Source of the DNA: Halorussus rarus
Lineage (GTDB): Archaea > Halobacteriota > Halobacteria > Halobacteriales > Haladaptataceae
NCBI RefSeq assembly: GCF_003369835.1
Contig: NZ_QPMJ01000002.1
Coordinates: 1,178,001 to 1,242,000 of the forward strand
Direction of reading: 5' to 3'
Length of the DNA stretch: 64,000 nucleotides
Shown here: positions 6,731-22,103 of the stretch, piece after piece
Layout: every line of letters begins with the position of its first letter
Position numbering within the stretch: the stretch's first letter is position 1
The notes under the pieces: model-generated
Databases searched by the model: none
The model's input: only the letters and a program-made list of their open reading frames with translations
What the model was told of the DNA's origin: nothing
Made by a program: the position numbers and the translations under genes

Positions 6731-8224
6731 TCACTCCTCGGGCCAGCGCTCGATGTACACCGTCTCGTCGGTGTAGAACCGGATCATGTCGTCGCCCTGG
6801 GCGTGGAGGTCCCCGAAGAACGACGCCTTGCGCCCGCCGAAGTGGAAGAACGCCATCGGCGCGGCCGTCCCGATGTTCACGCCGAGGTTGCCCGCCTCGG
6901 CCTCGTGGCGGAACCGCTTGGCCTCGGCGCCGCGCTCGGTGAACAGGCTGGCGGCGTTGCCGTACTCGCTCCGGTTGAGCGTCGCGAGCGCGTCGTCGAA
7001 GTCGTCGGTCCGAATCAGCGAGAGCACCGGGCCGAAGATCTCGTCGCGCGCGACGGTCATCTCGGGGTCGACGTCGCCGAACACGGTCGGCGCGAGGTAG
7101 AACCCCTCGTCGGAGAGGTCGGCGTCGCGCTCCCGGCCGTCGAGCAGGAGCGTCGCGCCCTCCTCGACGCCGGTCTCGACGTACTCCCGGACGGTCGCCT
7201 CGTGGTCGTCCGTAATCAGTGGCCCCATCTCCGTGTCCTCATCGAGGCCCGCACCCACAGTCAGGCTCGCGGCCTCGTCGACCACGCGGTCGGCGAACTC
7301 GTCGTAGACGTCGTCGTGGACGACCGCGACCGGGTTGGCGAGGCAGCGCTGGCCGGAGTTGGCGAACGCCGAGGAGACCGTCTGCTCGGCCGCGAAGTCG
7401 AGGTCCGCCGAGTCCGAGACCAGGATGTGGTTCTTCGCGCCGCCCTGGGCCTGGACGCGCTTGCCGTGCTTCGCCGCGGTCTCGTAGACGTGCTCGGCGA
7501 CCGGCGTCGAGCCGACGAACGACGCGCCGACCACGTCGTCGTGGGCCAGCAGCGCGTTCACGGTGTCGGGCCCGCCGTGGACCAGGTTGACCACGCCGTC
7601 CGGGAAGCCCGCCTCGTCGATGAGTTCGAACAGCTTCCGGGCCGTGAACGGCGTGCGCTCGCTCGGCTTGAGGACGAAGGCGTTGCCCGACGCCACCGCG
7701 TAGGGCAGGAACCACAGCGGGATCATGCCGGGGAAGTTGAACGGCGTGACGGCGGTGAACACGCCGAGGGGCTGGCGGACCGCGGTCTCGTCGATGTCCG
7801 GCGCGGCGTTCGGGAGGTGGCCGGCCTGGAGCATCGACGGCATCCCGCAGGCGACCTCGACGTTCTCGATGCCGCGGCGGAGCTCGCCCTTCGCCTCCCC
7901 GAACGTCTTGCCGTGCTCCTCCACGAGCACTTCGGCGAGCTCGTCCTGCTGGTCTTCGAGGAGCTGCTTGAGCTCGAACAGCGGCTGGATGCGCTCCTCG
8001 ACCGGGCGGGCCGACCAGTCCTCGAACGCCTCGTTCGCTTCGGCGACCGCCTCGTCCACGTCGCCCTCGTCGCTGAACGGCGTGACGCCGACCCGCTCGC
8101 CGGTCGCGGAGTTCACCACGGCCTGCTCGCCGTCGCCGGCGGGGTCGCGCCACTCGCCCGCGACGTAGTTCCGGGCCCGCTCTACCTCGGTCGCCTCACC
8201 GGTCGACAGCGGCGTCTCGCTCAT
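6731..8224 (-). CDS. mmsA: Methylmalonate/malonate-semialdehyde dehydrogenase (CoA-acylating)
   Basis: 497 residues, normal for the CoA-acylating ALDH subfamily. It converts methylmalonate or malonate semialdehyde to propionyl- or acetyl-CoA with NAD and CoA. The signature of the subfamily is visible: HLPNAAPDIDETAVRQPLGV, TPFNFPGMIPLWFLPYA, GGAKNH, and the nucleophile in GQRCLA (Cys294). The C-terminal FHFGGRKASFFGD stretch also fits. It is the last gene of a tight three-gene unit: its ATG follows the stop of the saccharopine-dehydrogenase-like gene with one base between. In this setting malonate semialdehyde from beta-alanine is a plausible substrate, since polyamine breakdown can give beta-alanine (inference). 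Confidence 0.9.
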   Translation of the reverse strand: MSETPLSTGEATEVERARNYVAGEWRDPAGDGEQAVVNSATGERVGVTPFSDEGDVDEAVAEANEAFEDWSARPVEERIQPLFELKQLLEDQQDELAEVLVEEHGKTFGEAKGELRRGIENVEVACGMPSMLQAGHLPNAAPDIDETAVRQPLGVFTAVTPFNFPGMIPLWFLPYAVASGNAFVLKPSERTPFTARKLFELIDEAGFPDGVVNLVHGGPDTVNALLAHDDVVGASFVGSTPVAEHVYETAAKHGKRVQAQGGAKNHILVSDSADLDFAAEQTVSSAFANSGQRCLANPVAVVHDDVYDEFADRVVDEAASLTVGAGLDEDTEMGPLITDDHEATVREYVETGVEEGATLLLDGRERDADLSDEGFYLAPTVFGDVDPEMTVARDEIFGPVLSLIRTDDFDDALATLNRSEYGNAASLFTERGAEAKRFRHEAEAGNLGVNIGTAAPMAFFHFGGRKASFFGDLHAQGDDMIRFYTDETVYIERWPEE

Positions 8225-8225
8225 C

Positions 8226-9359
8226 TCACGCCACCCTCGTCTCGGTGAGTTCGATGCCGCGGTCGGCGAGCTCGGCCGCGAACTGCTCGGGGTCGAGCAG
8301 TTGCTCGGGCGGCTTGGCGCCGGTGTCGAGGGCCTCGCCCGCGCCGACGACCTGGGCCGCGACGCCCATCGGGACGCCGGTCCAGACCGCGGTGGCCTTC
8401 AGCCCCCAGTCGTCGAGCCGCGACTCGACGACCACGCTCGACCGATAGTGAGCCGGTTCGCCGTCCTCCTCGCCGGTCACGTCGACCTTGAACGACTTCC
8501 ATTCCTCGACCGCGCCGGGCTTGGGCTGGCGGTCGAGGTGCCAGTCGAGGAACTCCCGGGGGCTGAACTCCGCACCCTTGAACTCGACCCCCTCCTCGCT
8601 GGTGAGGTTCAGGCCGATGAGCACGTCGCAGATGTTCACGAGGTCCGGCGAGAACGCGACGCGGAAGTCGACCGTCTCGACGCCCTCGAAGGTGTAGGGC
8701 ATCGTCGCGAGCTCGGAGTGGATGCTGTGGAACCCCTCGACCTCGCCCACGGGGTCGGGCATCGTGTACGTCTCGCGGCCCGAGAGCGGGTCGAGTTCGC
8801 GGTACTCGCCGTCCTCCCAGACGATGGGGTTCATCGTGAGCTCGTCGAGGATGGTCTTCGCCGAGTAGGCGAACCCCTCGCCGCCGCCCTTCGCGCCGGT
8901 CCGGATGTGGATCTCGTCGACCCGGTCGAGGTGGGCCGCGCTCCGGGCGGTCGCGACGTTCGTGAGGCCCGGGCTCGCGCCGATTCCCAGGACGGCGGTC
9001 AGCCCCGCCTCGTCGAACCGCTCGTCGAGCTCGAGCTGGTCCTGGGTCGTGTGGTAGAGCCCGCCCAGGTCGAGGTAGTGGGCGTCGGCCTCGAGGCAGG
9101 CCTCCATCACGTCGACGTTGAACGCGTAGGGGAGCGCGTTCGCCACCACGTCCGCGTCCGAGAGGAGGTCGACGAGCGCCTCGTCGTCGGTGACGTCCAC
9201 GTCGGCGACCTCGACGTCGCCGGGGAGGTCGGCCGCGAGTTCCTCGGCCGACTCGACGTCGGCGTCGGCGATGGTCAGGTCGGCGTCGCTGTTCTCCGCG
9301 AGTTCGTGGGACGTGGCGCGACCCATCGCGCCGCATCCGCCGAGTGCGATTACGTGCAT
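8226..9359 (-). CDS. Saccharopine/lysine-6-dehydrogenase-like oxidoreductase
   Basis: 377 residues. The N-terminus carries a Rossmann motif (ALGGCGAMGRA) as in saccharopine dehydrogenase, carboxynorspermidine dehydrogenase and lysine 6-dehydrogenase; the family hallmark GASPGLTNV follows in the middle, and the C-terminal half is the substrate domain. The start is the ATG at 9357-9359, which shares one base with the TGA of the preceding aldehyde dehydrogenase, so translation is probably coupled. The partner suggests a product that is an amino-aldehyde: for example allysine made by lysine 6-dehydrogenase and oxidised by the coupled ALDH (inference). Carboxynorspermidine reduction is the main alternative. 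Confidence 0.75.
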   Translation of the reverse strand: MHVIALGGCGAMGRATSHELAENSDADLTIADADVESAEELAADLPGDVEVADVDVTDDEALVDLLSDADVVANALPYAFNVDVMEACLEADAHYLDLGGLYHTTQDQLELDERFDEAGLTAVLGIGASPGLTNVATARSAAHLDRVDEIHIRTGAKGGGEGFAYSAKTILDELTMNPIVWEDGEYRELDPLSGRETYTMPDPVGEVEGFHSIHSELATMPYTFEGVETVDFRVAFSPDLVNICDVLIGLNLTSEEGVEFKGAEFSPREFLDWHLDRQPKPGAVEEWKSFKVDVTGEEDGEPAHYRSSVVVESRLDDWGLKATAVWTGVPMGVAAQVVGAGEALDTGAKPPEQLLDPEQFAAELADRGIELTETRVA

Positions 9360-10783
9360 CAGTAGTCCTTGTAGTTCATCATGACCGCCTTCGTCTGGGT
9401 CATCGCTTCGAGGTGCCACTTGCTGCCGTACCGGCCGCCCGAGCCGCTCTCGCCGTAGCCGCCGAACGGGAGCAGTCGCTCCCAGTAGTTGTTGGTCTCG
9501 TTGACGAACACGCCGCCGGCCTTGAGCCGGTCGGCCGCGTCGTGGGCGCGTTCGAGCGAGTCGGTGAAGATGGCCGCCTGGAGGCCGTACTGCGACCGGT
9601 TCGCGATGTCGATGGCCTCGTCGTAGTCTCGCGCGGTGATGACCGGCGTCACCGGTCCGAACGTCTCCTCGCGGGCGACGTCCATCTCCTCGGTCACGCC
9701 GTCGAGCACCGCGGGGTCGTAGAACAGGCCGTCGGTGTCACCGCCGGTCAACAGCTCCGCGCCCCGCTCGACCGCGCCGTCGACGTGGTCGACGACCTTC
9801 CGCTGGATGCGCTCGCTCACCATCGGCCCGACGTCGGTCCCCTCCTCGAAGGGGTCGCCGAGTTCGAGGCCCTCGGTCTTCTCGACCACCGCGTCGACCA
9901 GGTCGTCGTGGACCCCCTCGGTCGCGATGACCCGCTCGGTGCCGCAGCAGACCTGGCCGGCGTTCCAGTTGCTGCCCGTCACGATGCTCTCGGCGGCGTG
10001 GTCGACGTCGGCGTCGTCGAGCACGAGGATGGGGTCCTTCCCGCCCATCTCCAGCAGGCACTGGGCGTTGCGCTCGGCCGCGGTCTTCGCGATCTGCTGG
10101 CCGACCTCGGTGCTACCGGTGAACGCGATGAGCCGGACGTCCCGGTGTTCGACCAGCGCCTGCCCGGTCTCGCCCGCGCCCGTGACGAGGTTGAACGCGC
10201 CGTCCGGGAGGCTCGACTGGTCGAACGCCTCCGCGATGTGGTAGGCGGTCAGCGGCGTCTCCTCGGCGGGCTTGAACACCACGGGGTTCGCGGTGGCGAT
10301 GGCCGAGTAGATGGAGCCGCCCGGCACCTCCAGCGGGAAGTTCCACGGGCTGATGACCGCACAGGGGCCGTAGGGCTCGCGCTGGGTGTAGGCGAACCGG
10401 CCGCGGAACTCCGAGGGCACCACGTCGCCGAACAGCCGGATGGCGTCGTGGGCGTAGTCGTCGCTGGACTCGATGACGTACTCGGTCTCGTCGTAGGACT
10501 CGTGGAGCGGCTTGCCCTCCTCGCGGGTGATGCCCTCCGCGATCTCGTCCTCGTTGGCCTCGAAGTAGTCGGTCACCTCGTCGAGCACCGCCGCCCGCTC
10601 GAAGGCGGTCATCGCCTCGAGATCGCGTTGGGCGCGGCGGGCCGCCTCGACCGCCTTCCGGACGTCCTGTCCGGAGCCGGCCGGGACGGTGTCGATGACC
10701 TCCCCGTCGACGGGCGAGTCGACCTCGATGCCCTCGCTGGCCTCGGCGTCGACCCACTCGCCGTCTATGTAGAGCTGTCTCAT
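9359..10783 (-). CDS. NAD(P)-dependent aldehyde dehydrogenase (semialdehyde type)
   Basis: 474 residues, canonical ALDH fold: SPWNFPLEVP in the coenzyme loop, FTGSTEVGQ, catalytic Glu in LEMGGKDP, nucleophile in GQVCCGTE (Cys279), and ETFGPVTPV. Length and motifs fit succinate-semialdehyde, glutarate-semialdehyde or allysine dehydrogenases. First gene of the unit 9359-8226-6731, with a one-base stop/start overlap to the next gene. Upstream 10784-11031 is non-coding and holds the likely promoter with an AAATCTTT/AAAGATTT inverted pair. Substrate cannot be fixed by sequence reading; the coupled saccharopine-type dehydrogenase makes allysine an attractive candidate. Confidence 0.85.
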   Translation of the reverse strand: MRQLYIDGEWVDAEASEGIEVDSPVDGEVIDTVPAGSGQDVRKAVEAARRAQRDLEAMTAFERAAVLDEVTDYFEANEDEIAEGITREEGKPLHESYDETEYVIESSDDYAHDAIRLFGDVVPSEFRGRFAYTQREPYGPCAVISPWNFPLEVPGGSIYSAIATANPVVFKPAEETPLTAYHIAEAFDQSSLPDGAFNLVTGAGETGQALVEHRDVRLIAFTGSTEVGQQIAKTAAERNAQCLLEMGGKDPILVLDDADVDHAAESIVTGSNWNAGQVCCGTERVIATEGVHDDLVDAVVEKTEGLELGDPFEEGTDVGPMVSERIQRKVVDHVDGAVERGAELLTGGDTDGLFYDPAVLDGVTEEMDVAREETFGPVTPVITARDYDEAIDIANRSQYGLQAAIFTDSLERAHDAADRLKAGGVFVNETNNYWERLLPFGGYGESGSGGRYGSKWHLEAMTQTKAVMMNYKDY

Positions 10784-11031: not shown

Positions 11032-12543
11032 TCAGAGCGACGGGTCGTCGAGCGCCAGGTTGACCGACTTGCTCTGCGTGTACTCCGAGAGCGCCTCCTT
11101 CCCGCACTCCCGGCCGATGCCCGACTGCTTGAACCCGCCGAACGGGGTGCCGGGGACGGTGCCGAAGTACTGGTTCACCCAGATGCTCCCGGCCTCGACG
11201 TCGGCGGCGGCCCGGTGGGCCCGGGAGGCGTCGCTCGTGAAGACGCCGGCGGTCAGCCCGTAGGTCACGTCGTTGGCGATCTCGATGGCCTCCTCGTACG
11301 TCGAGTAGGTCGTGACGAACTGGACCGGCCCGAACACCTCCTCCCGGGCGATGCGCATCTCGGGGTCGACGTCGCCGAAGACAGTGGGTTCGACGTAGTA
11401 GCCGTCGGCGAGTTCGTCGTCGTCCGGTCGGCCGCCGCCGGTCAGGACCGTCGCGCCCTCCTCCCTGCCGAGGTCGAGGTACTCCTCGACCTTCTCGCGG
11501 TGGGCCGCGTAGCAGAGCGGCCCCTGGTTGGCGTCCTGCAGCGGGTCGCCCACCGACCGGGACTCGACCGCGTCGAGGTAGCGGTCGAGGAACTCGTCCT
11601 CGATGTCCTCGTGGACGAGGATACGGGTCCCAGAGTCGCACGACTGGCCGTTGTTGTAGAGGCCCGCGACCGCCGCGGTCTCGGCCGCCGACTCGAGGTC
11701 GGCGTCCGGGAACACCACGAACGGGTTCTTCCCGCCGAGTTCGAGCGTGACCGGCGTCACGTCGGCCGCGGCCGCCCGCATGACCTCCCGGCCGACCGGG
11801 ACCGACCCCGTGAACGACACCTTGCGGATGCGGTCGTGGCCCGCGACGGCCGCACCGGCCTCGTCGCCGAAGCCGGGAACGACGTTCAGCACGCCGTCGG
11901 GCAGGATGCCCTCGGCCAGCTGGGCCGCCCGGACCACCGCGAGCGGGGCCTGCTCGGCGGGCTTGGTGACGGAGGTGTTGCCGGTCGCGAGCGCCGCGCC
12001 GACCTTCCACCCCATCAGGAGGACGGGGTAGTTCCACGGGAGGATCTGGCCGGTCGCGCCGTACGGTTCGCGCCGGACGTACGCGAACGAGTCGTCGCCG
12101 ACGTCGGGCACCGACCCCTCCTCGCCGACCGCCGCCGCGGCGTAGTACTCGAAGAAGTCGATGCCGGTCTCCGCGTCGGCCTTCGCGGCGTAGAGGGGCT
12201 TGCCGACCTCCAGCGTCTCGAGGAGCGCGAGCTCGTCGAGGTGGTCCCGGAGGACGCTCGCCCACTCCCGGATGCGGTCGCCCCGCTCCGTCGCGGTCAA
12301 CTCGGCCCACTCGCCGTCGGCGGCGGCCTCGGCTGCCGCCACCGCGGCGTCGACGTCGGCCCCGCGCCCGCGGGCCACCTCGGCGATGGGGGCGCCGACC
12401 GCCGGGTCCTCGGGCGCGAACGTCTCGCCGCCGGCCGCCGCGGCGGTCTCGCCGTCGACGACGAGGCCGAACTCGACGCCGTCGGTCGCTGCTTCGATTG
12501 CCGATTCGTGATTCGCCTGGAGTGAGTCGTCGTACGCTGTCAT
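11032..12543 (-). CDS. Betaine/aminobutyraldehyde-type aldehyde dehydrogenase
   Basis: 503 residues. ALDH motifs in order: LPWNYPVLLMGWK, FTGSVPVGRE, LELGGKNP, nucleophile in NNGQSCDSGTR (Cys302), EVFGPVQFV, and GGFKQSGIGRECGKEAL near the end. This set is typical of the betaine-aldehyde/4-aminobutyraldehyde/4-trimethylaminobutyraldehyde group, which oxidises amino-aldehydes produced from putrescine and related amines. It lies 118 bp downstream of potA on the same strand, so it may be read with the importer; the gap contains short tandem repeats. A second promoter within that gap cannot be excluded. Oxidation of an amino-aldehyde derived from the imported substrate is the best guess. Confidence 0.85.
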   Translation of the reverse strand: MTAYDDSLQANHESAIEAATDGVEFGLVVDGETAAAAGGETFAPEDPAVGAPIAEVARGRGADVDAAVAAAEAAADGEWAELTATERGDRIREWASVLRDHLDELALLETLEVGKPLYAAKADAETGIDFFEYYAAAAVGEEGSVPDVGDDSFAYVRREPYGATGQILPWNYPVLLMGWKVGAALATGNTSVTKPAEQAPLAVVRAAQLAEGILPDGVLNVVPGFGDEAGAAVAGHDRIRKVSFTGSVPVGREVMRAAAADVTPVTLELGGKNPFVVFPDADLESAAETAAVAGLYNNGQSCDSGTRILVHEDIEDEFLDRYLDAVESRSVGDPLQDANQGPLCYAAHREKVEEYLDLGREEGATVLTGGGRPDDDELADGYYVEPTVFGDVDPEMRIAREEVFGPVQFVTTYSTYEEAIEIANDVTYGLTAGVFTSDASRAHRAAADVEAGSIWVNQYFGTVPGTPFGGFKQSGIGRECGKEALSEYTQSKSVNLALDDPSL

Positions 12544-12661: not shown

Positions 12662-13864
12662 TCACTTCGTCAGCACGACCACGTTGTCGGTCGTCCAGCC
12701 GACCGTCACGGTCCGGCCGGTCGAGAGGTAGTCGCCGCGGTCGGTTATCTGCATGTCGACTGTGAGCATCTGGCCGTTGTCGAGCCGCACCTCGAACTTC
12801 CCGAAGTTGCCCTTGTAGATCTCGTCGACGACCTCGGCCTCGAACTCGTTGGCCAGGCCGCCGGCCTCGGGGCCGAGCCGGATCTTCTCGGGTCTGACCG
12901 CGAACGAGACCTCGCCCGACGCCTCGGGCTCGGACGGGACCCGGAACTCGAGGCCGTCGCGCTCGACGACCGCCCCGTCGTTCGTCTCGGCGTAGTCGCC
13001 CCGGACCAGGTTGGTCTCGCCGATGAAGTCGGCGACGAACTCGGTCTCGGGCTCCTCGTAGATCTCGGTCGCCGACCCGAGCTGTTCGAGCTGGCCGTCG
13101 TTCATCACGGCGATCTCGTCGCTCATCGTCAGCGCCTCCTCCTGGTCGTGGGTGACGTAGACGAAGGTCGTCCCCAGCTCCTCCTGGAGGTTCTTCAGCT
13201 CGACCTGCATGTTCTTCCGGAGCTTGAGGTCGAGCGCACCGAGCGGCTCGTCGAGCAGCAGTACGGTCGGTTCGGTGACCAGCGCCCGCGCGAGCGCGAC
13301 CCGCTGCTGCTGGCCGCCCGACAGCTCCGAGATGTCCCGGTCCTGGAAGCCGGGGAGCTCGACGAGTTCGAGCACCTCGGCCACCCGGGCCTCGATCTCC
13401 TCGCCGCCGGTCCGGCTGACCAGCCGGCCGAGCGCGCCGCGCACGCCGCTCCGGCTCGCGGTCGCGGTCCCGCCGTCGGGCGCCGTCGCCCGGGCGTCGC
13501 CGTCCGCGTCCGCGCCGGCCCGCGTCGCGTTGCGCTCCTCGGGGAGCCCCTGCATCTGGAGGCCGAACGCGACGTTCTCGCCCACGGTCATGTGGGGGAA
13601 CAGCGCGTACGACTGGAACACCATGCTGGTGTCGCGCTCGAACGGCGGGACGTCGTTGACCCGCTCGCCGCGGATGGACACCTCGCCCTCGGTGGGGGTC
13701 TCGAACCCGTCGATGCACCGGAGCAGCGTCGTCTTGCCGCAGCCCGAGGGGCCGAGCAGGGTGAGGAACTTCCCCTCCTCGATGTCGATGCTCACGTCGT
13801 CCACGGCGACCACGTCGCCGAACCGCTTGGTGACGCCGTCGAGCCGAACGTCGTAGTCAGTCAT
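12662..13864 (-). CDS. potA: ABC transporter ATP-binding protein, polyamine type (PotA)
   Basis: 400 residues. It powers the importer formed with the two permeases and the lipoprotein. Walker A GPSGCGKT (38-45), Q-loop FQSYALFPHM, signature LSGGQQQR, Walker B LLLDEPLGALD, H-loop THDQ, then a C-terminal TOBE-like regulatory domain (about 290-400). An Ala/Thr/Asp-rich insertion of roughly 40 residues sits in the helical domain (about 107-150) between Q-loop and signature, absent from typical PotA proteins. The ATG at 13862-13864 follows the stop of the binding-protein gene by three bases. Last transport gene of the operon potB-potC-potD-potA. Confidence 0.92.
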   Translation of the reverse strand: MTDYDVRLDGVTKRFGDVVAVDDVSIDIEEGKFLTLLGPSGCGKTTLLRCIDGFETPTEGEVSIRGERVNDVPPFERDTSMVFQSYALFPHMTVGENVAFGLQMQGLPEERNATRAGADADGDARATAPDGGTATASRSGVRGALGRLVSRTGGEEIEARVAEVLELVELPGFQDRDISELSGGQQQRVALARALVTEPTVLLLDEPLGALDLKLRKNMQVELKNLQEELGTTFVYVTHDQEEALTMSDEIAVMNDGQLEQLGSATEIYEEPETEFVADFIGETNLVRGDYAETNDGAVVERDGLEFRVPSEPEASGEVSFAVRPEKIRLGPEAGGLANEFEAEVVDEIYKGNFGKFEVRLDNGQMLTVDMQITDRGDYLSTGRTVTVGWTTDNVVVLTK

Positions 13865-13867
13865 CGG

Positions 13868-15088
13868 TCAGGCGTTCTGGATCTCGGTCCACGCCCGACT
13901 GTATATCTGGGTGGCCTGTCCGATGTTCTGGATGTACTCGAGCTGGTCCATCGTCTGGTCGTCGGGGTAGATGCTCTCGTTGTCGAGGATGTCCCCGCTG
14001 ATGTGCTGCTCGGCCGCCTGGTTGGGGCTGCCGTAGTACGTCCAGTTGGTGATGGCCGCGCCGACCTGGGCGTTGAGGTAGTAGTTCATGAACGCGTGGG
14101 CCGCGTTCGGGTTCTTCGCCTGCTTGGTGAGCGCCCCGTTGTCCACCCAGATGACGCCGCCCTCGTCGGGGACGACGTAGTTGATGGGCGAGGAGCCGTC
14201 GCTGTACGTCTCCCAGTACGCCTGGAACGCGGCGCCGGACCAGGCGTGGACCGGGCTGGCCTGCTCGTTGATGAGGTTGACGGTGGTGTTCGAGGAGTCG
14301 TAGGTCTTCAGCAGGTCCTTCTGCTCGATGAGCAGCTCCTTGGCCTCCTCGATCTTGGCCTCGTCTTTGGTGTTGAGCGAGTAGCCGAGCCGCTTGAGGG
14401 TCGCGCCGATGGTCTCGCGCATGTCGTTGAGCATCGTCATCTGGCCCTTCCACTCGCTGTTCCACATCGCCTCCCACGAGTTGATGGAGACGTCCCCGCC
14501 CAGCATGTTGGCGTTGTACGCGATGCCGCTGGTCCCCCACTGGTAGGGGACCGAGTACAGGCCGGGGTCCGGGTCGTACGGCGTCCCCGTAAACTGGTCC
14601 GAGAGGTTGCCGAGGTTCGGAATCTTCGCCTCGTCGATCTGCTGGACCATATCCTGGCTCACCAGGACGTTTATCATGTAGTCGCTCGGGAAGATCAGGT
14701 CGTACTGGCTCGTCCCGCCCGCCTTCAGCTTGTTGAACATCTCCTCGTTGGAGGCGTAGTTCGAGACGTTGACCTTCACGCCGTAGGCCTGCTCGAAGTC
14801 CTGGACCGTGCCGTCGGGCCAGTAGTCGCCCCACTGGAAGATGTTGAGCTGGTTCTCGAGCTCGTAGTCGAGCTCCTGCAGGCCGTACTTCTCGCGCGGG
14901 TTCGACGACCCCGCCGTCGTGGTGTCCGACCCGGCAGTCGTGGTGTCGGCCTCGGTCGTGGTCGTCGACTGCCCCTCGCCGTCGCCGCCCGTGCAGCCCG
15001 CGAGCCCGGTCAGTCCGACCGCGGCCAGCGAGCCGGTCGTCTTGAGGAACCGCCGTCTGTCGCCTTGGTTGGAATTTTGCTTGCCCAT
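13868..15088 (-). CDS. potD: Polyamine-type ABC transporter substrate-binding lipoprotein (PotD)
   Basis: 406 residues from the internal ATG at 15086-15088, nine codons inside the longest frame, which puts the Tat motif DRRRFLK near the N-terminus and the lipobox LAGC about 20 residues later. After the Cys comes a Thr-rich tether, then a type-I/II periplasmic-binding fold with the PotD-like stretches YWPDGT, FEQAYGVKV and PYQWGTSGIAYN. The ligand is probably a polyamine or related cationic compound, but specificity cannot be read directly. Exported folded by Tat and anchored by lipid outside the membrane. Gene lies 82 bp after potC; the gap has an AT-rich stretch and may carry an internal promoter. 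Confidence 0.9.
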   Translation of the reverse strand: MGKQNSNQGDRRRFLKTTGSLAAVGLTGLAGCTGGDGEGQSTTTTEADTTTAGSDTTTAGSSNPREKYGLQELDYELENQLNIFQWGDYWPDGTVQDFEQAYGVKVNVSNYASNEEMFNKLKAGGTSQYDLIFPSDYMINVLVSQDMVQQIDEAKIPNLGNLSDQFTGTPYDPDPGLYSVPYQWGTSGIAYNANMLGGDVSINSWEAMWNSEWKGQMTMLNDMRETIGATLKRLGYSLNTKDEAKIEEAKELLIEQKDLLKTYDSSNTTVNLINEQASPVHAWSGAAFQAYWETYSDGSSPINYVVPDEGGVIWVDNGALTKQAKNPNAAHAFMNYYLNAQVGAAITNWTYYGSPNQAAEQHISGDILDNESIYPDDQTMDQLEYIQNIGQATQIYSRAWTEIQNA

Positions 15089-15170
15089 CTGTATCACACC
15101 ATCTCTTTCGGTCAAAGGCGGGTCTTTGACATAAAGATTGTGGAGAAATACGACCGAATCCGAAATTTTT

Positions 15171-16019
15171 CTACCAGATGGGGCCCTCGAACCATTGGGC
15201 GACCGCCACGATACCCATTGTGACCACGATGATGAGCGCGGCGACGACGTTCACGCCGGGCGTGATGCCCTGCCGGACCATCGAGAAGAAGAAGATCGGC
15301 AGGGTGTTCTGGTTGCCGATGATGAAGAACGTCACCACGAAGTCGTCGAAGCTCATCGCGAACGCCAGCAGCGCGCCGGCCATGATGCCGGGCTTGAGCA
15401 GCGGAAGGGTGACGTACCGGAACGTCTCGAGCTCGTTCGCCCCGAGGTCCTTGGCGGCCTCCTCGAGGGTCTCGTCGAAGCTCTGGAGCCGCGCGAGCAC
15501 CACGATGGTCACGAAGCTGATGTCGAACGCGATGTGACCGATGGCCGCGGTGTGGAGCCCGAGCGACATCCCGACGATGTTGAAGAACAGCAGCAGCGAG
15601 ATGCCCATCACGATGCTGGGGATGATGATGGGCATGTAGACGACGCCCGTGAACAGCCCCTTGCCCGGGAACTCGTAGCGGTTCAGCGCGAACGCCAGCA
15701 TCGTCCCGAAGACGACGCTCACGACGACGGTGACCACCGCGATCTCGACCGAGTGGACAAGCGCCGAGAACGCGGCGTCGGGGTTGACCCGCGCGACCGT
15801 GTTGCCGGCGAGCAGGTCGGCGTACCACTCGGTCGTGAACCCCTGCCAGACCAGCGCGTACCGCGAGTCGTTGAACGACAGCGCGATGAGGACCGCGATG
15901 GGGACGTAGAGGAACAGGTAGACCAGCGCCGCCTCCAGCGCGAGCAGCGGTCCGCTCCAGTCGAACACCCGCGACCGGAGCCGGGCGAGCAGGCCCCGGT
16001 TGTCGGTTCCGACGCTCAC
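15171..16019 (-). CDS. potC: ABC transporter permease, polyamine type (PotC)
   Basis: 282 residues with six predicted membrane helices and the EAA loop LEEAAKDLGANELETFRYVTLPLL that contacts PotA. GTG start at 16017-16019 overlaps the potB stop in a GTGA arrangement, a strong sign of translational coupling. Forms the channel with PotB in the cytoplasmic membrane. Confidence 0.9.
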   Translation of the reverse strand: MSVGTDNRGLLARLRSRVFDWSGPLLALEAALVYLFLYVPIAVLIALSFNDSRYALVWQGFTTEWYADLLAGNTVARVNPDAAFSALVHSVEIAVVTVVVSVVFGTMLAFALNRYEFPGKGLFTGVVYMPIIIPSIVMGISLLLFFNIVGMSLGLHTAAIGHIAFDISFVTIVVLARLQSFDETLEEAAKDLGANELETFRYVTLPLLKPGIMAGALLAFAMSFDDFVVTFFIIGNQNTLPIFFFSMVRQGITPGVNVVAALIIVVTMGIVAVAQWFEGPIW

Positions 16020-17035
16020 GCGATATCAGCGCTCCCGTAGCGCTGGTAGACCGCGATGGCCAGCAGCATGATGCCCATCAGCGTGAACGACCCGGCCGCG
16101 CCCAGCGGCCAGTTGCCCGCGGCGCCGAACTGGTTGGCGATGAAGTTGCCGATCATCTGGCTGTTCGGTCCGCCGAGCAGGCCCGGGATGACGTAGGCGC
16201 CCGTGCTGGGGATGAACACCAGCAGGCTCCCGGCGATCACGCCGGGCATCGACAGCGGGAACACCACCCGCCGGAACGCCTGGAACTGGGTCGCGCCGAG
16301 GTCCATCGCGGCCTCCCGGAGCGTGAAGTCGATCTCCTCGATGCTCGCGTACACGGGCAGTATCATGAACGGGATCCAGATGTACACCAGCCCGACCATC
16401 ACCGCGAACCGGGAGTTCATCAGCGAGTCGCCCGCCGCGAACCACGGCAGGAATCCGAGCATGTTGGTGAGGATGCTGTTGCCCGACAGCAGGATCTGGA
16501 TGGCGTAGATGCGCACAAGGAAGGAGGCCCAGAACGGAAGGATGATGAGCACCAGCAGCAGGTCCTGGTACTCGTCGGGCGCGACCCGGCCCACGAAGTA
16601 CGCGACCGGGTAGCCGACGACGAACGAGATCACGGTCGCCAGCGCCCCGAAGCCGATGCTCTTTATGGTGAGCTGGACGTACGGCGTCGGCTCGCCCGCG
16701 GCCAGCTGGAACGACCCGGGGACGAAGGCTTCGATCGCCCACGCGACCGTCCACCAGGCCGCCTGGAGCACCGAGGCGTCGTCCGGGACGAAGAAGAGCC
16801 GGTACTGTTGGAGCCCGAGGTACTCGGGCGCGATGAGGACTTCTCCGAACGCGCCGCGCTGGCCGAAGCTGTAGTAGAACATCACGGCCAGGGGCACGAG
16901 GAAGAAGACGAGCAGCCAGAGCGCGCTCGGACCGGCGTTCAGGACCAGTCCGGTCCAGCGATTCCGTCGTAACCGCCGGAGGAGCGACGACCCGGACTCT
17001 CCCTCCCGCTCGCGGGTAGTGTGTTCGCTTGCCAT
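16016..17035 (-). CDS. potB: ABC transporter permease, polyamine type (PotB)
   Basis: 339 residues, charged N-terminal tail then six predicted membrane helices, and the EAA loop LREAAMDLGATQFQAFRRVVFPL. Periplasmic loop after the first helix is longer than in bacterial PotB. It is the first gene of the importer operon and faces the nitrilase gene divergently. The 132-bp gap holds a minus-strand CTTATTT box about 36 bp before this start and a short inverted repeat TCGGA-N5-TCCGA (17086-17100) that could bind a shared regulator, such as the Lrp-type protein encoded 1 kb away. Confidence 0.9.
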   Translation of the reverse strand: MASEHTTREREGESGSSLLRRLRRNRWTGLVLNAGPSALWLLVFFLVPLAVMFYYSFGQRGAFGEVLIAPEYLGLQQYRLFFVPDDASVLQAAWWTVAWAIEAFVPGSFQLAAGEPTPYVQLTIKSIGFGALATVISFVVGYPVAYFVGRVAPDEYQDLLLVLIILPFWASFLVRIYAIQILLSGNSILTNMLGFLPWFAAGDSLMNSRFAVMVGLVYIWIPFMILPVYASIEEIDFTLREAAMDLGATQFQAFRRVVFPLSMPGVIAGSLLVFIPSTGAYVIPGLLGGPNSQMIGNFIANQFGAAGNWPLGAAGSFTLMGIMLLAIAVYQRYGSADIA

Positions 17036-17085
17036 GCGTTCCTGTCACGCATCGTCGGCGCGTCCCGAAATAAGTTTTGCCCTAT

Positions 17086-17100
17086 TCGGAGATTGTCCGA
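17086..17100. promoter_or_regulatory. Inverted repeat in the potB/nitrilase divergent promoter region
   Basis: TCGGA and TCCGA arms with a 5-base spacer lie midway between the two divergent starts. Size and AT-rich flanks are compatible with an Lrp/AsnC half-site pair, but this is only a guess. Confidence 0.3.
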
Positions 17101-17167
17101 TGATCTTACCCTCGATAGCCGGAATCCAGACAAAGTTTTTGTTGCCGAGGCCAGTAGGTCCAGCAGG

Positions 17168-17998
17168 ATGAGCGCGGACCCCGGGACGTTCGAGGTGGCA
17201 CTGTGCCAGTACGAGTTCGCCGACGTCGAGTCGGTCGACGCCCTCCGTCGGCGCGTCGAGCGGCTGTTCGACCGGGCGGGCGCGGCCGACTGCTACGTCC
17301 TGCCGGAGCTGTTCGCCAGCGACTGTCTCCCCGCCGGCGGCGAACTCGCGACCCTCGACTCGGCCCGGCGGGCCGCGCTCCACGACGCGCTCGCCGACGC
17401 GGCCGCCGACCGAGAGGCCGTCGTCGTCGGCGGGTCGTACAACGTCGCCGAGGACGGGGCGGTGTACAATCGGTGTCCCGTCGCGACGCCGGACGGGGGC
17501 GTCGAGACCTACGACAAGCGCCACCTCATCCCCGAGGAGCGAGCGGCGGGCAAGCGCGCGGGCGAGACCGACCCGCCGGTGATCGAGCATCGCGGGGTCG
17601 GCGTGGGCGTCGCGGTCTGCTACGACGTGGAGTTTCCCGAACTGGTCCGGGGGCTCGCCGACCGCGGCGCCGAGGTCGTCGCGGTCCCGTCGTGGACGGG
17701 CGAGGAGGCCGGATTCCAACGGGTCCGGCGGTGCGCGGCCGCCAGAGCGGTCGAGAACCAGTGCTACGTCGCGCAGGTCAGCGTCGTCGGCGAGCGGTCG
17801 GCGGACCTGCGCGGCACTGGCCGGTCGGCGGTGTTCGCACCGTGCGACGACGTCGTCGGCCCGCGGGGCACCCGGCTCTCGCTGCCGCGCGACGAGGCGG
17901 CGGCCGGAACGTGCTCGGTGGACGTGCGTGCACTTCGACGATCGCGGTCGGACGCGTCGGTGCGACCCTACACCGACGCCGCGGGACGCGAGGAGTGA
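17168..17998 (+). CDS. Nitrilase-family carbon-nitrogen hydrolase (omega-amidase / N-carbamoyl-amine amidohydrolase type)
   Basis: 276 residues from the ATG at 17168. The Glu-Lys-Cys triad is clear: E47 in LPELF, K117 in TYDKRHLIPEE, C151 in AVCYDVEFPEL. The family hydrolyses amides such as N-carbamoylputrescine, N-carbamoyl-beta-alanine or omega-amides. It reads divergently from the importer operon and heads a rightward series (amidohydrolase, Lrp regulator, dimethylargininase-like protein, aminotransferase, FAD oxidase). With a putrescine-type importer next door, carbamoyl- or amide-nitrogen release from an imported amine is reasonable, but the motifs do not separate the subfamilies. Earlier in-frame starts exist but would add a tail not seen in the family. 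Confidence 0.85.
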   Translation: MSADPGTFEVALCQYEFADVESVDALRRRVERLFDRAGAADCYVLPELFASDCLPAGGELATLDSARRAALHDALADAAADREAVVVGGSYNVAEDGAVYNRCPVATPDGGVETYDKRHLIPEERAAGKRAGETDPPVIEHRGVGVGVAVCYDVEFPELVRGLADRGAEVVAVPSWTGEEAGFQRVRRCAAARAVENQCYVAQVSVVGERSADLRGTGRSAVFAPCDDVVGPRGTRLSLPRDEAAAGTCSVDVRALRRSRSDASVRPYTDAAGREE

Positions 17999-18049: not shown

Positions 18050-18502
18050 ATGAGCATCGACGAGATTGACGCGAAGATACTGAAAATTTTACAGGCGGAC
18101 GGCCGGACCGCCCTGTCGGAGATCGCCCGGCGGCTCGACATGGGGAGCGCCACGATCCACGAGCGGGTCAACACCCTGGAGGAGGAGGGGTACATCCAGG
18201 ACTACCGGGCGGTGCTCGACGCCGAACTGCTCGGCCTCGACAAGGTGGCGTTCATCCGGGTCGAGACCCGGGCCGGGCGGTTCTCGGAGGTGGCCGAGCG
18301 GCTCGCCGAGGAGGGCGCCATCCAGGAGATCCACGAGCTCACCGGCGAGGCCGACCTGCTGTTGAAGGTCCGGGTCGGCGACCGGGAGGACCTGACCGAC
18401 TTCCTGAGCCGCATCGGCAAGTACGAGGGCGTCGTCTCGACCACGACCGACGTGGCCCTCCGGAGCGTCAAGGAAGAGAACCGGCTGAACATCCCCGACT
18501 GA
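18050..18502 (+). CDS. Lrp/AsnC family transcriptional regulator
   Basis: 150 residues from the ATG at 18050. Winged helix-turn-helix at residues 3-60 (IDAKILKILQADGR, ARRLDMGSATIHERVNTLEEEGYI), then an alpha/beta RAM ligand-binding domain ending with a TTTDVALRSVKEENRL strand. Such proteins sense amino acids and control nearby catabolic or transport genes. Its TGA shares a base with the ATG of the dimethylargininase-like gene (TGATG), so the two are translated together. It is the obvious candidate regulator for the whole 9-22 kb locus. Confidence 0.92.
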   Translation: MSIDEIDAKILKILQADGRTALSEIARRLDMGSATIHERVNTLEEEGYIQDYRAVLDAELLGLDKVAFIRVETRAGRFSEVAERLAEEGAIQEIHELTGEADLLLKVRVGDREDLTDFLSRIGKYEGVVSTTTDVALRSVKEENRLNIPD

Positions 18503-19377
18503 TGACCGGATGGGACCTCTCGCCGTCGGTCCGGAGCGAGGTCGGCCGGCTTGAGCGCGCGCTGGTCCACGAGCCCGGCCCGGAGTTCTCGACCGTGGTC
18601 GACCCGGACGCGTGGAGCTGGGACGGGCTCCCCCGCCAGGAGACCGCGGCCGAGGAACACCGGGCGCTGGTCGAGCAACTGGAGGACAGCGGCGTGACGG
18701 TCCACCGCCTCGACGGCGCGCGCGAGGGGCTGGCCGAGTCGCTGTTCGTCCGGGACGTGGGCCTCGCGGTCGAGGGCGGCCTCGTCGTCGGGAAGATGGT
18801 CGAGGAGACGCGCCACGGCGAGGAGCGCCGGGTCGCCGAGCGGGCGCTCGACCTGGGAATTCCGATCTACCACACGGTCCACGGCCCCGGCGGGTTCGAG
18901 GCCGGCAACGTGGTGTGGATCGACGAGGAGACCGTCGCCGTCGGCCGGTCCCAGACCACCAACGCCGAGGGCATCCGGCAGGTCCGGACCGTGCTCGAGA
19001 CCTACGACATCGACGTCGTGGAGGTACCCATCTTCGGGAGCACCGAGAGCACCGGCCAGACCCACCTCGCGCTGGTGTTCGGGATGGTGGCCGAGGACCT
19101 CGCACTGGTCTACCCCCAGGCGGTCCCCCCGGAGTTCCTCGAACTCCTGCACGACCGCGGGATCGAGACGGTGAAGGTCCCGATGCGCGAGCAGCGGAAC
19201 CGCGCGACCAGCACGGTCGTCGTCGAACCCGGTCGGGTGCTGCTCCCCTCCGGCAACCCCCGCGTGCGGGAGTCGCTCGCCGAGCGGGGCATCGACGTGG
19301 TCGAACTCGACCTCAGAGAGATCCGGAAGACGGGCGGCGGGCTGAAAGGGCTGGTCCTCCCCCTGGAGCGGAGCTGA
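18502..19377 (+). CDS. Dimethylargininase/arginine-deiminase-fold protein lacking the catalytic cysteine
   Basis: 291 residues with the full five-bladed guanidine-modifying fold by motif order: LVHEPGPE (22-29), FVRD (82-85), GFEAGNVVWI (131-140), QTTNAEGI (151-158), THL (187-189) and a C-terminal KTGGGL-KGLVLPLER. In active family members the last motif is GGGxHCxxxPL; here the His-Cys pair is Lys-Gly (282-283), and the protein contains no cysteine at all. The Asp after the catalytic HL is Ala190, and EGGD is EAGN. Asp85, Glu133 and His188 remain. So classical Cys-mediated guanidine hydrolysis is not possible; it may bind a guanidine compound, act as a sensor with the coupled Lrp protein, or catalyse something else. 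One-base overlap with the Lrp gene. Confidence 0.85.
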   Translation: MTGWDLSPSVRSEVGRLERALVHEPGPEFSTVVDPDAWSWDGLPRQETAAEEHRALVEQLEDSGVTVHRLDGAREGLAESLFVRDVGLAVEGGLVVGKMVEETRHGEERRVAERALDLGIPIYHTVHGPGGFEAGNVVWIDEETVAVGRSQTTNAEGIRQVRTVLETYDIDVVEVPIFGSTESTGQTHLALVFGMVAEDLALVYPQAVPPEFLELLHDRGIETVKVPMREQRNRATSTVVVEPGRVLLPSGNPRVRESLAERGIDVVELDLREIRKTGGGLKGLVLPLERS

Positions 19378-19477: not shown

Positions 19478-20869
19478 ATGAGTCTCGGTGACAAAGAGCA
19501 AGAGCGGGACCACGCAGAGCGACTCCGCGAGCGGACGGGCAAGAGCGAGCAGTTCTTCGAGCGGGCCAAGCGGACCACGCCCCTCGGCGTCGAGTCGAAC
19601 GTCCGCGCGTTCGACCCCTACCCCTTCTACGTGGAAGAGGCGGACGGCTCGTACCTGTACGACGTGGACGGCAACGAGTACCTGGACTTCCTGCTGGCAC
19701 TCGGCCCGATCATCCTCGGGCACGGCCACCCGGAGGTCCGGGAGGCGGTAAAGGCGCAGGTCGACAAGTGCGACCTGACAGCCACGCCACAGCCGATCGC
19801 GATCGAGTTCATGGAGAAGGTCGCGGAGATGACCCCCAGCATCGAGAAGGTCCGACTGGCCAACTCCGGGAGCGAGGCGACCATGCACGCGATGCGGGTC
19901 GCCCGGTCGTACACCGGCCGGGACAAGATCGCCAAGCCCGAGGGCGGCTACGCCGGCGCGCACGACTACGCCCTCCAGAGCGTCTACGCCAGCGAGGACG
20001 CCCTGGGACCGGCCGACGCGCCCAACACGGTCTCGTACGGGACGGGCATCCCCGAGGCGGTCTCGGACACCGTGGTTCCGTTCCCGTACAACGACAAGGA
20101 AGCGACCGAGGAGATCCTCCGCGAGCAGGCCGACGACGTCGCGGCGGTCATCATCGAGCCGGTGATGTTCTCCTGCGGCTGTCTCAAGCCCCGGGACGGC
20201 TACCACGAGTTCCTCCGTGACCTGACGGAGGAACTGGGCATCGTCCTCATCTGGGACGAGGTGATGACGGGGTTCCGGCTCGGCCCGCAGAGCGCGCAGG
20301 GCCGGTTCGGCGTCACGCCCGACATGACCACCTTCGCGAAGGCCGCGGGCGGCGGCTACCAGATGGCCGGCTTCGGCGGGAAGGCCGAGATCATGGACGA
20401 GATCGCGCCGCCCGAGAAGAAGGAAGACGAGAAGTGGCACGCCTCGGCCTTCCACGGCGGTACTTACAACGGCCACCCGGTCTCGGCCGCCGCGGGCCTC
20501 AAGACCCTGGAGATCCTCGACGAGCGCGACGTGTACGAGCACATCGAGGAGATGGGCGACCGGCTGTTCACGGGCCTCCAGGAGGTCGCCGACGACGTGG
20601 GCATCGCCGCGAACGTCCAGCACATCGGGTCGATGGGCCAGGTGTACATGACCGACCACGACATCCACAGCTACCGGGACACCTGGCACGCCAACGAGGA
20701 GCAGTTCGCCGACTGGTGGCTCGAGGCCGCCGGCGACGGCGTGCTGTTCGGCAACCCGATGCAGGGCGAGCGGTTCTTCACCACCTACACCCACACCGAC
20801 GAGGAGATAGACCGGGCGCTGGAGACCGCCGAGGACGCCTTCCGCGCGGTCGACCACGAGTACGAGTGA
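19478..20869 (+). CDS. Class-III pyridoxal-phosphate aminotransferase (glutamate-1-semialdehyde-aminomutase-like)
   Basis: 463 residues from the ATG at 19478, supported by the AT-rich box about 30 bp before it. Family motifs: NSGSEATMHAMRVARSYTGR, the PLP-contacting IIEP, WDEVMTGFR, and the Schiff-base lysine K288 in TFAKAAGGG. It resembles glutamate-1-semialdehyde aminomutase more than omega-amine transaminases of the PuuE type, but its place in a catabolic locus argues against haem biosynthesis. It would move an amino group to or from an omega-amino acid or amino-aldehyde, feeding the aldehyde dehydrogenases. The FAD oxidase starts 13 bp after its stop, so the two form an operon. Confidence 0.88.
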   Translation: MSLGDKEQERDHAERLRERTGKSEQFFERAKRTTPLGVESNVRAFDPYPFYVEEADGSYLYDVDGNEYLDFLLALGPIILGHGHPEVREAVKAQVDKCDLTATPQPIAIEFMEKVAEMTPSIEKVRLANSGSEATMHAMRVARSYTGRDKIAKPEGGYAGAHDYALQSVYASEDALGPADAPNTVSYGTGIPEAVSDTVVPFPYNDKEATEEILREQADDVAAVIIEPVMFSCGCLKPRDGYHEFLRDLTEELGIVLIWDEVMTGFRLGPQSAQGRFGVTPDMTTFAKAAGGGYQMAGFGGKAEIMDEIAPPEKKEDEKWHASAFHGGTYNGHPVSAAAGLKTLEILDERDVYEHIEEMGDRLFTGLQEVADDVGIAANVQHIGSMGQVYMTDHDIHSYRDTWHANEEQFADWWLEAAGDGVLFGNPMQGERFFTTYTHTDEEIDRALETAEDAFRAVDHEYE

Positions 20870-20882
20870 GCTCGACCGAGAG

Positions 20883-22103
20883 ATGATGAACGAACAGGAA
20901 TCGCGTTCCGGAGAGAGTTCGACCGAGGGCCGACGCGGGGCGAAGGACCGCCCTCGCGGGAGCTACGACGTCATCGTCGTCGGCGGCGGGGTCGTCGGCT
21001 GCGCCGTCGCCCGCGAACTCGCGGCCGACCGCGAGGTGCTGGTCGTCGAGCGCGGCCAGATCGCCGGCGAAGCCACCGCGCTCGCGGCCGGCGAGATCAC
21101 CATGTCGCCGTCGTACACCGACGAGCCCGGCATCGCCGACCACGCCAACGAGTTCTTCCGGGCCTACGACGGCACCGGCGAGTTCTCGTTCGCCGAGCGA
21201 CACAGCGTCGAACTCGTCCCGCCCGACCGGGAGGGCGAGGCCCGCAGGCGCGTCGAGCGGCTCGCCGACCGGGGCGTCGCCGTCGAGTTCCTCGAACCCG
21301 GGGCGGTCGAGCGCCGGCACTCGCGGTTCGACCTGTCGAGGTTCGCCGGGGCGGTCCGCCACGAGGACACCGGGTTCGTCGACCCCTACACCTTCGCGGT
21401 CACGCTCAAGGAGGACGCCGAGGCCCGCGGCGCGACGATTCTGACCGACACCGAGGTCGCGGGACTGGTGACCGATGGAACCGGTATCGCGGGCGTCGAG
21501 ACCGACGCCGGCGCGTTCGAGGCGCCACAAGTGGTCGTCGCCGCGGGGTGGCGGACCGAGCCGTTCCTCCGCGACCGGCTCGAGCTCCCGGTCCGGCCGT
21601 ACCGGACCCAGTGCGTGGTGCTGGACCCCGACGAGGCGCTCGACGAGGACTTCCCGATGGGCTGGGTGCCCGGCGAGCACGTCTACTTCCGGCCCGAGCG
21701 CAACGGCGACCTGCTGGTCGGGGGCTGGTCGTTCGCCGAGGACGACCCCGAGGGCGCGAGCGACCGGGAGGACGAGGCGTTCCGCGACCACGTCGCCGAC
21801 CTGGTCCCGGGCTTCCTCCGGGCGTTCGACCGCGCCCGGTTCGTCAACGGCTGGGCCGGCGTGGACGGCGCGACCCCGGACACCCGCCCCGTCGTCGACG
21901 CGCCCGCCGAGGCCCCCGACGGACTGGTCGTCGCCACGGGGTTCCACGGCCGCGGGGTGATGACCGCGCCCGTCGCGGCGACCGCGGTGCGCGAGCTGGT
22001 CGGCGGCGAGCCGGCGCCGTTCCCGCTGTCGCCGTTCGCGCTCGACAGGTTCGAGTCGCGGAGCCGGGACTTCGAGTTCTTCAGCATCAGCGCGGGCGAC
22101 TGA
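20883..22103 (+). CDS. FAD-dependent amino-acid/amine oxidoreductase (DadA/glycine-oxidase family)
   Basis: 406 residues. After a disordered acidic N-terminus comes the dinucleotide-binding strand YDVIVVGGGVVGCAVARELA (GGGVVG at 34-39), then the DAO-family middle domain and the C-terminal flavin motif GVDGATPDTRPVVD...GLVVATGFHGRGVMTAP. The family oxidises secondary or primary amines (sarcosine, glycine, D-amino acids, N-alkyl amines) to imines, which hydrolyse to aldehydes. Directly downstream of the aminotransferase with a 13-bp gap, and followed by the HalOD1 gene 33 bp later. Role in this locus: oxidative deamination or N-dealkylation of the imported amine (inference). Confidence 0.85.
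   Translation: MMNEQESRSGESSTEGRRGAKDRPRGSYDVIVVGGGVVGCAVARELAADREVLVVERGQIAGEATALAAGEITMSPSYTDEPGIADHANEFFRAYDGTGEFSFAERHSVELVPPDREGEARRRVERLADRGVAVEFLEPGAVERRHSRFDLSRFAGAVRHEDTGFVDPYTFAVTLKEDAEARGATILTDTEVAGLVTDGTGIAGVETDAGAFEAPQVVVAAGWRTEPFLRDRLELPVRPYRTQCVVLDPDEALDEDFPMGWVPGEHVYFRPERNGDLLVGGWSFAEDDPEGASDREDEAFRDHVADLVPGFLRAFDRARFVNGWAGVDGATPDTRPVVDAPAEAPDGLVVATGFHGRGVMTAPVAATAVRELVGGEPAPFPLSPFALDRFESRSRDFEFFSISAGD

Follow-up and report, generated by a model that had tools for sequence, protein, structure and literature searches.

A conserved cysteine-less branch of the ADI/DDAH fold in haloarchaea, encoded beside an Lrp-family regulator in a polyamine-type gene cluster

The DNA analyzed here (the window) is a 64,000-nt stretch of Halorussus rarus (assembly GCF_003369835.1, contig NZ_QPMJ01000002.1, positions 1,178,001-1,242,000, forward strand). 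The genes of the locus are as follows, in window coordinates:

6731-8224, minus strand: CoA-acylating enzyme of the methylmalonate/malonate-semialdehyde dehydrogenase family
8226-9419, minus strand: saccharopine-dehydrogenase-like protein, best PDB match carboxyspermidine dehydrogenase (8deb)
9359-10783, minus strand: second aldehyde dehydrogenase (ALDH_2)
11032-12543, minus strand: BetB-like aldehyde dehydrogenase
12662-13864, minus strand: PotA-like ATPase
13868-15115, minus strand: PotD-like solute-binding protein
15171-16019, minus strand: PotC-like permease
16016-17035, minus strand: PotB-like permease
17021-17998, plus strand: carbon-nitrogen hydrolase (nitrilase family), present only in the clusters of the nearest relatives
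18050-18502, plus strand: Lrp/AsnC-family regulator with HTH and RAM ligand domains, its stop overlapping the next ATG
18502-19377, plus strand: protein of the DDAH/ADI fold, 291 aa, with Gly283 for the nucleophile Cys, Lys282 preceding it, and Asp85, Glu133 and His188 retained
19478-20869, plus strand: class-III aminotransferase, GSAM-like (AT3)
20883-22103, plus strand: FAD-dependent amine/amino-acid oxidoreductase (DAO family)

The ORF at 18502-19377 is intact and encodes a deiminase-like protein with the motifs FVRD (residues 82-85), FEAGN (132-136), THLA (187-190) and GGGLKG (278-283), the last at the site where relatives show GG-x-x-C. These ordered motifs, and the Lys-Gly that stands in place of His-Cys, are as described in a sequence-only reading of this DNA, which proposed a dimethylargininase/arginine-deiminase fold. 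Structure prediction agrees with that fold (mean pLDDT 80, pTM 0.83), with low confidence at residues 180-186; the best structure matches of the model are AGAT, NnhA, DDAH and ADI (E ~1e-17 to 1e-14), with TM values of ~0.75-0.82 against DDAH, ADI and NnhA. The protein exceeds the cut-offs of Pfam ADI (PF02274, 65.3 bits) and DDAH_eukar (60.5 bits) and matches DDAH/ADI chains of the PDB by sequence. These matches and the predicted alpha/beta-propeller place the protein in the ADI/DDAH branch of the guanidino-group-modifying (pentein) superfamily. By curated standards it is neither ADI nor dimethylargininase, because its NCBIfam scores fall far under the cut-offs (83-87 bits vs. 414-489 for the ADI equivalogs, and 77 bits vs. 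340 for the dimethylargininase equivalog).

A family search and 391 genomes of the class yielded 22 orthologs of 66-94% identity, which together with the window protein form a set of 23 (identities of 66-100%; those from the class sample span 12 haloarchaeal genera); within the class sample the protein occurs in 18 of the 391 genomes. The nucleophile position of catalytic ADI/DDAH enzymes is Gly in all 23 aligned orthologs, and it is preceded by Lys in 22 of them and by Gln in the remaining one, such that the Lys-Gly substitution flagged from the single sequence extends across the family. Outside the clade every aligned relative retains Cys at this site, including haloarchaeal sequences and bacterial ones from Thermomicrobium (36.5% identical), Ensifer, Kozakia, Shinella, Rhizobium and Streptomyces. 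A 43-sequence tree separates the Cys-less orthologs from 20 Cys-bearing relatives by a branch supported at 100/98; some of its outgroup branches are long and it does not resolve the sister group of the clade. Because the Cys-less group is one clade, a single loss of the nucleophile suffices as explanation. A pattern scan of genome contigs relied on K-G motif patterns, to which Cys-bearing relatives are invisible.

Two further observations of the sequence-only reading were borne out in part. The window protein has no Cys, as stated, but the family does not share this complete absence: of the 23 orthologs, 14 are Cys-free and nine carry one to three Cys, always away from the nucleophile position. 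With Cys at a frequency of 0.57% in the window, ~1.65 Cys are expected and the probability of none is ~0.19; 14 of 50 window ORFs lack Cys altogether. Total Cys absence is, thus, rejected as a signal, being at chance level in Cys-poor proteins and not conserved among orthologs. The Asp that ADI carries two residues past the catalytic His is indeed replaced, by Ala190 in 22 of the 23 orthologs and by Thr in one; as a sign of lost activity the replacement fails, since Lys occupies this site in active DDAHs (PMC11659421).

A frameshift, assembly error or decaying gene, the first two of which the earlier reading had named as possibly hiding a Cys-containing end, is refuted and retains practically no probability. 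No point in favor of such an artifact was found, and the same open frame and residues recur in 23 genomes under strong purifying selection (pairwise dN/dS 0.07-0.16). A missing nucleophile could otherwise be supplied in a mixed oligomer by a Cys-bearing ADI/DDAH paralog, and many superfamily members do form oligomers. Genome content makes this very improbable: the deiminase-like protein is the sole protein above the Pfam ADI cut-off in 17 of the 18 genomes, a count on which a Cys-bearing partner is rejected for ADI-family proteins, and in the window's genome it matches only itself and there is no agmatine-deiminase family protein.

The pocket was mapped by sequence alignment to the substrate-binding and catalytic residues of ADI and DDAH, at 13 positions chosen from known ADI/DDAH structures. 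Ten of the 13 are invariant in the 23 orthologs, compared to 110 of the 291 residues of the whole protein (hypergeometric P = 0.004). The invariant residues include Asp85, Arg104 and the catalytic Glu133 and His188 of the superfamily; further pocket positions hold the invariant Glu79 and the likewise kept Arg84. Other positions are changed yet fixed in the clade, namely Gly283 for Cys, Asn136 for Asp and Thr152 for the Arg that binds the alpha-carboxylate of the substrate (taken here to be ADI Arg243 and DDAH Arg132), while Ala190 and Lys282 are nearly fixed. Since the acidic cation pocket is kept and the carboxylate-binding Arg is an invariant Thr, the residue pattern suggests an amine-like ligand rather than arginine.

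The locus has the same general order in all 22 other genomes whose loci were inspected: Pot genes, a divergent Lrp gene, the deiminase-like gene, the aminotransferase and the FAD oxidoreductase. An aldehyde-oxidizing enzyme stands beside the Pot genes in every locus examined, in keeping with the setting of amine import and aldehyde oxidation noted from the window. Four other genomes have an aldehyde ferredoxin oxidoreductase where the BetB-like dehydrogenase would stand, implying that aldehydes are oxidized at this step. The exchange (window 11032-12543; loci L048, L051, L053, L056 and L059) is a non-orthologous replacement. Variable partners of the cluster are the saccharopine-dehydrogenase-like protein, further aldehyde dehydrogenases and, in the nearest relatives, the nitrilase; the saccharopine-dehydrogenase-like protein (8226-9419), whose closest solved relative is carboxyspermidine dehydrogenase, sits in a catabolic setting. 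In locus L062 (genome G044), at ~8700-9165 in the oriented locus, the Pot genes are apparently deleted with a PotA fragment left, and the Lrp, deiminase-like, aminotransferase and FAD oxidoreductase genes are kept. An extra FAD oxidoreductase lies between the deiminase-like gene and the main aminotransferase gene in G065 and Haloferax marinum, joined in the latter by another aminotransferase; loci L048/L059 and L058 have a second FAD oxidoreductase in the same interval.

The aminotransferase resembles glutamate-1-semialdehyde aminomutase (GSAM) and has matches to GSAM and GntE models; it passes one broad NCBIfam model, PRK00062, but does not reach the equivalog cut-offs of hemL and GntE. Judged from its gene context it is probably a polyamine- or GABA-type enzyme, and the GSAM labels on its orthologs may be wrong. 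Its relatives in Natrialba and Natronorubrum adjoin glutamine-synthetase-like and glutamine-amidotransferase-like genes; because these are gene sets of gamma-glutamyl-polyamine breakdown, the cluster is of polyamine type, and polyamine catabolism is the best reading of its role from gene content. The way archaea use polyamines has been called complex and unexplored, and GlnA-2 of Haloferax mediterranei has glutamate-putrescine ligase activity (PMC8394153).

The main rival to a sensory role is that the protein would be a catalyst that dispenses with Cys: the Glu133-His188 pair would activate water, or transfer a proton, acting directly on a cationic substrate and forming no covalent intermediate. 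The substrate could be an imine, cyclic imine or aminoaldehyde released by the neighboring aminotransferase or FAD oxidoreductase. The invariance of Asp85, Glu133, His188, Arg104 and Glu79, the low dN/dS and the constant amine-to-aldehyde neighbors (aminotransferase, FAD oxidoreductase and aldehyde-oxidizing enzyme) are all consistent with such an enzyme, which is unlikely on the sequence comparisons but a serious contender. Weighing against it, the characterized superfamily enzymes named in the surveyed literature all use Cys, and changing the nucleophile Cys of NnhA to Ala or Ser abolishes activity (PMC11659421). The aminotransferase and Pot transporter, moreover, exist without the deiminase-like protein. 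Lys282, a candidate Schiff-base residue, is naturally Gln in one ortholog and, hence, is not an essential catalytic residue. The narrower proposal, that the haloarchaeal branch would catalyze a polyamine-breakdown reaction by the retained Glu-His-Asp alone, free of Cys and covalent intermediate, is rather doubtful.

The gene immediately upstream encodes a protein that scores above cut-off for both PF13404 (HTH) and PF01037 (RAM), as is diagnostic of the Lrp/AsnC family. The Lrp ORF is open from 18002, with the start at 18050 likelier by homology; the RefSeq Haladaptatus ortholog is 453 nt. Its stop codon overlaps the deiminase-like ATG as TGATG, the coupling pointed out from the window alone, and in all 23 loci the Lrp stop overlaps or abuts the deiminase-like start, never more than a few bases away from it. 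The Lrp ortholog (E <= 1e-50, at least 67% identity) and the deiminase-like protein have identical distributions, each being present in the same 18 genomes out of 391. The Lrp linkage is conserved alongside the loss of the nucleophile. The adjacent aminotransferase occurs in 29 of the 391, comprising all 18 with the pair and 11 with neither Lrp nor deiminase-like protein. On a plasmid of Natronorubrum aibiense (L070, 9421-15395) the pair is absent, and the Pot genes directly adjoin the gene of an 85%-identical aminotransferase. Because the two genes are absent together while Pot and aminotransferase genes persist, the pair appears to come and go as one module. IclR-type regulators are found near the N. 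aibiense Pot and aminotransferase genes. The co-occurrence is support for, not proof of, a partnership, as linkage of adjacent genes contributes to it. The PotB-Lrp gap was inspected for a conserved Lrp operator; no clear inverted repeat is apparent, and the alignment shows AT-rich promoter-like stretches.

The same distribution bears on an alternative in which the protein is a non-catalytic subunit that stabilizes or regulates the aminotransferase or FAD oxidoreductase rather than acting with Lrp. Such a subunit would account for the aminotransferase being present in all 18 genomes that have the deiminase-like protein and for the gene order shared by most loci; it is, however, improbable, given that aminotransferases up to 85% identical do without the protein in 11 genomes and that a gene intervenes before the aminotransferase in two lineages (L048/L059; L058).

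The most likely reading, held with middling confidence from comparative sequence data, is that the deiminase-like protein is a ligand-binding pseudoenzyme paired with Lrp. Three features favor it: the module can be separated from the pathway enzymes, it goes with a single regulator, and the residue essential in NnhA is missing from it. In the proposed scenario, the nucleophile would have been lost once, in the ancestor of one haloarchaeal clade, and the protein then kept as a ligand binder. The retained pocket (Asp85, Glu79, Glu133, His188 and Arg104) would most likely bind a small cationic intermediate of polyamine breakdown, both the binding and the ligand being features that we infer. A signal would then pass to the Lrp protein through a putative contact, and the pair would control the divergent PotABCD, aminotransferase, FAD oxidoreductase and aldehyde dehydrogenase genes, in a direction of regulation that is likewise conjectural.

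The uniform Gly with one origin, low dN/dS, invariant pocket, and Lrp gene contact and co-occurrence all argue for the pseudoenzyme paired with Lrp. A member of the same superfamily, eIF-6, does not modify guanidines (PMC11659421), and in the MocR regulators GabR and EnuR an enzyme fold is reported to sense compounds of amine catabolism (PMC6917764, PMC8739950). Several points run the other way. The Lrp protein has a full RAM ligand domain and proteins of this family need no partner; co-occurrence of adjacent genes is partly explained by linkage; and the Glu-His base and acidic pocket are also what an enzyme would require. In one ortholog the RefSeq start is 27 nt downstream, which would turn the overlap into a short gap. 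The pair might, in addition, replace a catalytic step, as PuuA-like glutamine-synthetase relatives occur in 7 of 11 genomes without the pair vs. 5 of 18 with it, a weak trend. Strict mutual exclusion between the pair and PuuA-like enzymes is rejected by the five genomes that have both.

The conserved Cys-less clade represents one of two things: a former enzyme turned sensor, or an enzyme whose chemistry is unknown. The branch is well defined, with its pocket retained, its regulator partner constant and its setting a polyamine cluster, and it makes the choice between sensor and Cys-free chemistry testable within this fold, some of the host organisms (for example in Halorubrum and Haladaptatus, and Haloferax marinum) being culturable. 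If true, Cys-free catalysis would bring a new chemistry to this fold, in which the enzymes studied so far depend on Cys. At least one recent survey, the NnhA phylogeny, left such sequences out, its authors having removed those without the conserved Cys (PMC11659421). No study of the clade was found in the literature searched, largely open-access papers, and its novelty is provisional.

Among known systems, ADI (ArcA; PF02274) shares the fold, the F-x-R-D motif, the catalytic Glu and His and an REQ-x-N-like C-terminal motif, and RefSeq names the orthologs 'arginine deiminase family protein'. By contrast, the deiminase-like protein is without the Cys nucleophile and the Asp two residues past the His, has Thr at the carboxylate-binding Arg position and is shorter (291 vs. 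~410 aa). DDAH is similar in fold and length, has equivalents of the retained residues (Asp66, Glu114 and His162) and also lacks the Asp after the His; it differs in that its Cys249, Arg132 and Glu65 are Gly, Thr and Arg, respectively, in the deiminase-like protein. NnhA, a 2-nitroimidazole nitrohydrolase of the same superfamily, matches at the C-terminus and is among the structure hits of the model, with a Foldseek E of 3.9e-17; NnhA requires its Cys357 (PMC11659421). eIF-6 is a superfamily precedent for service in translation instead of guanidine modification (PMC11659421), although the deiminase-like protein is far closer to ADI/DDAH and retains their Glu, His and Asp. The MocR regulators GabR and EnuR, as reported, resemble the proposed system in using an enzyme fold as sensor within an amine-catabolism cluster (PMC6917764, PMC8739950); in these regulators an aminotransferase fold is fused to the HTH, whereas the haloarchaeal pair consists of separate genes and a different fold.
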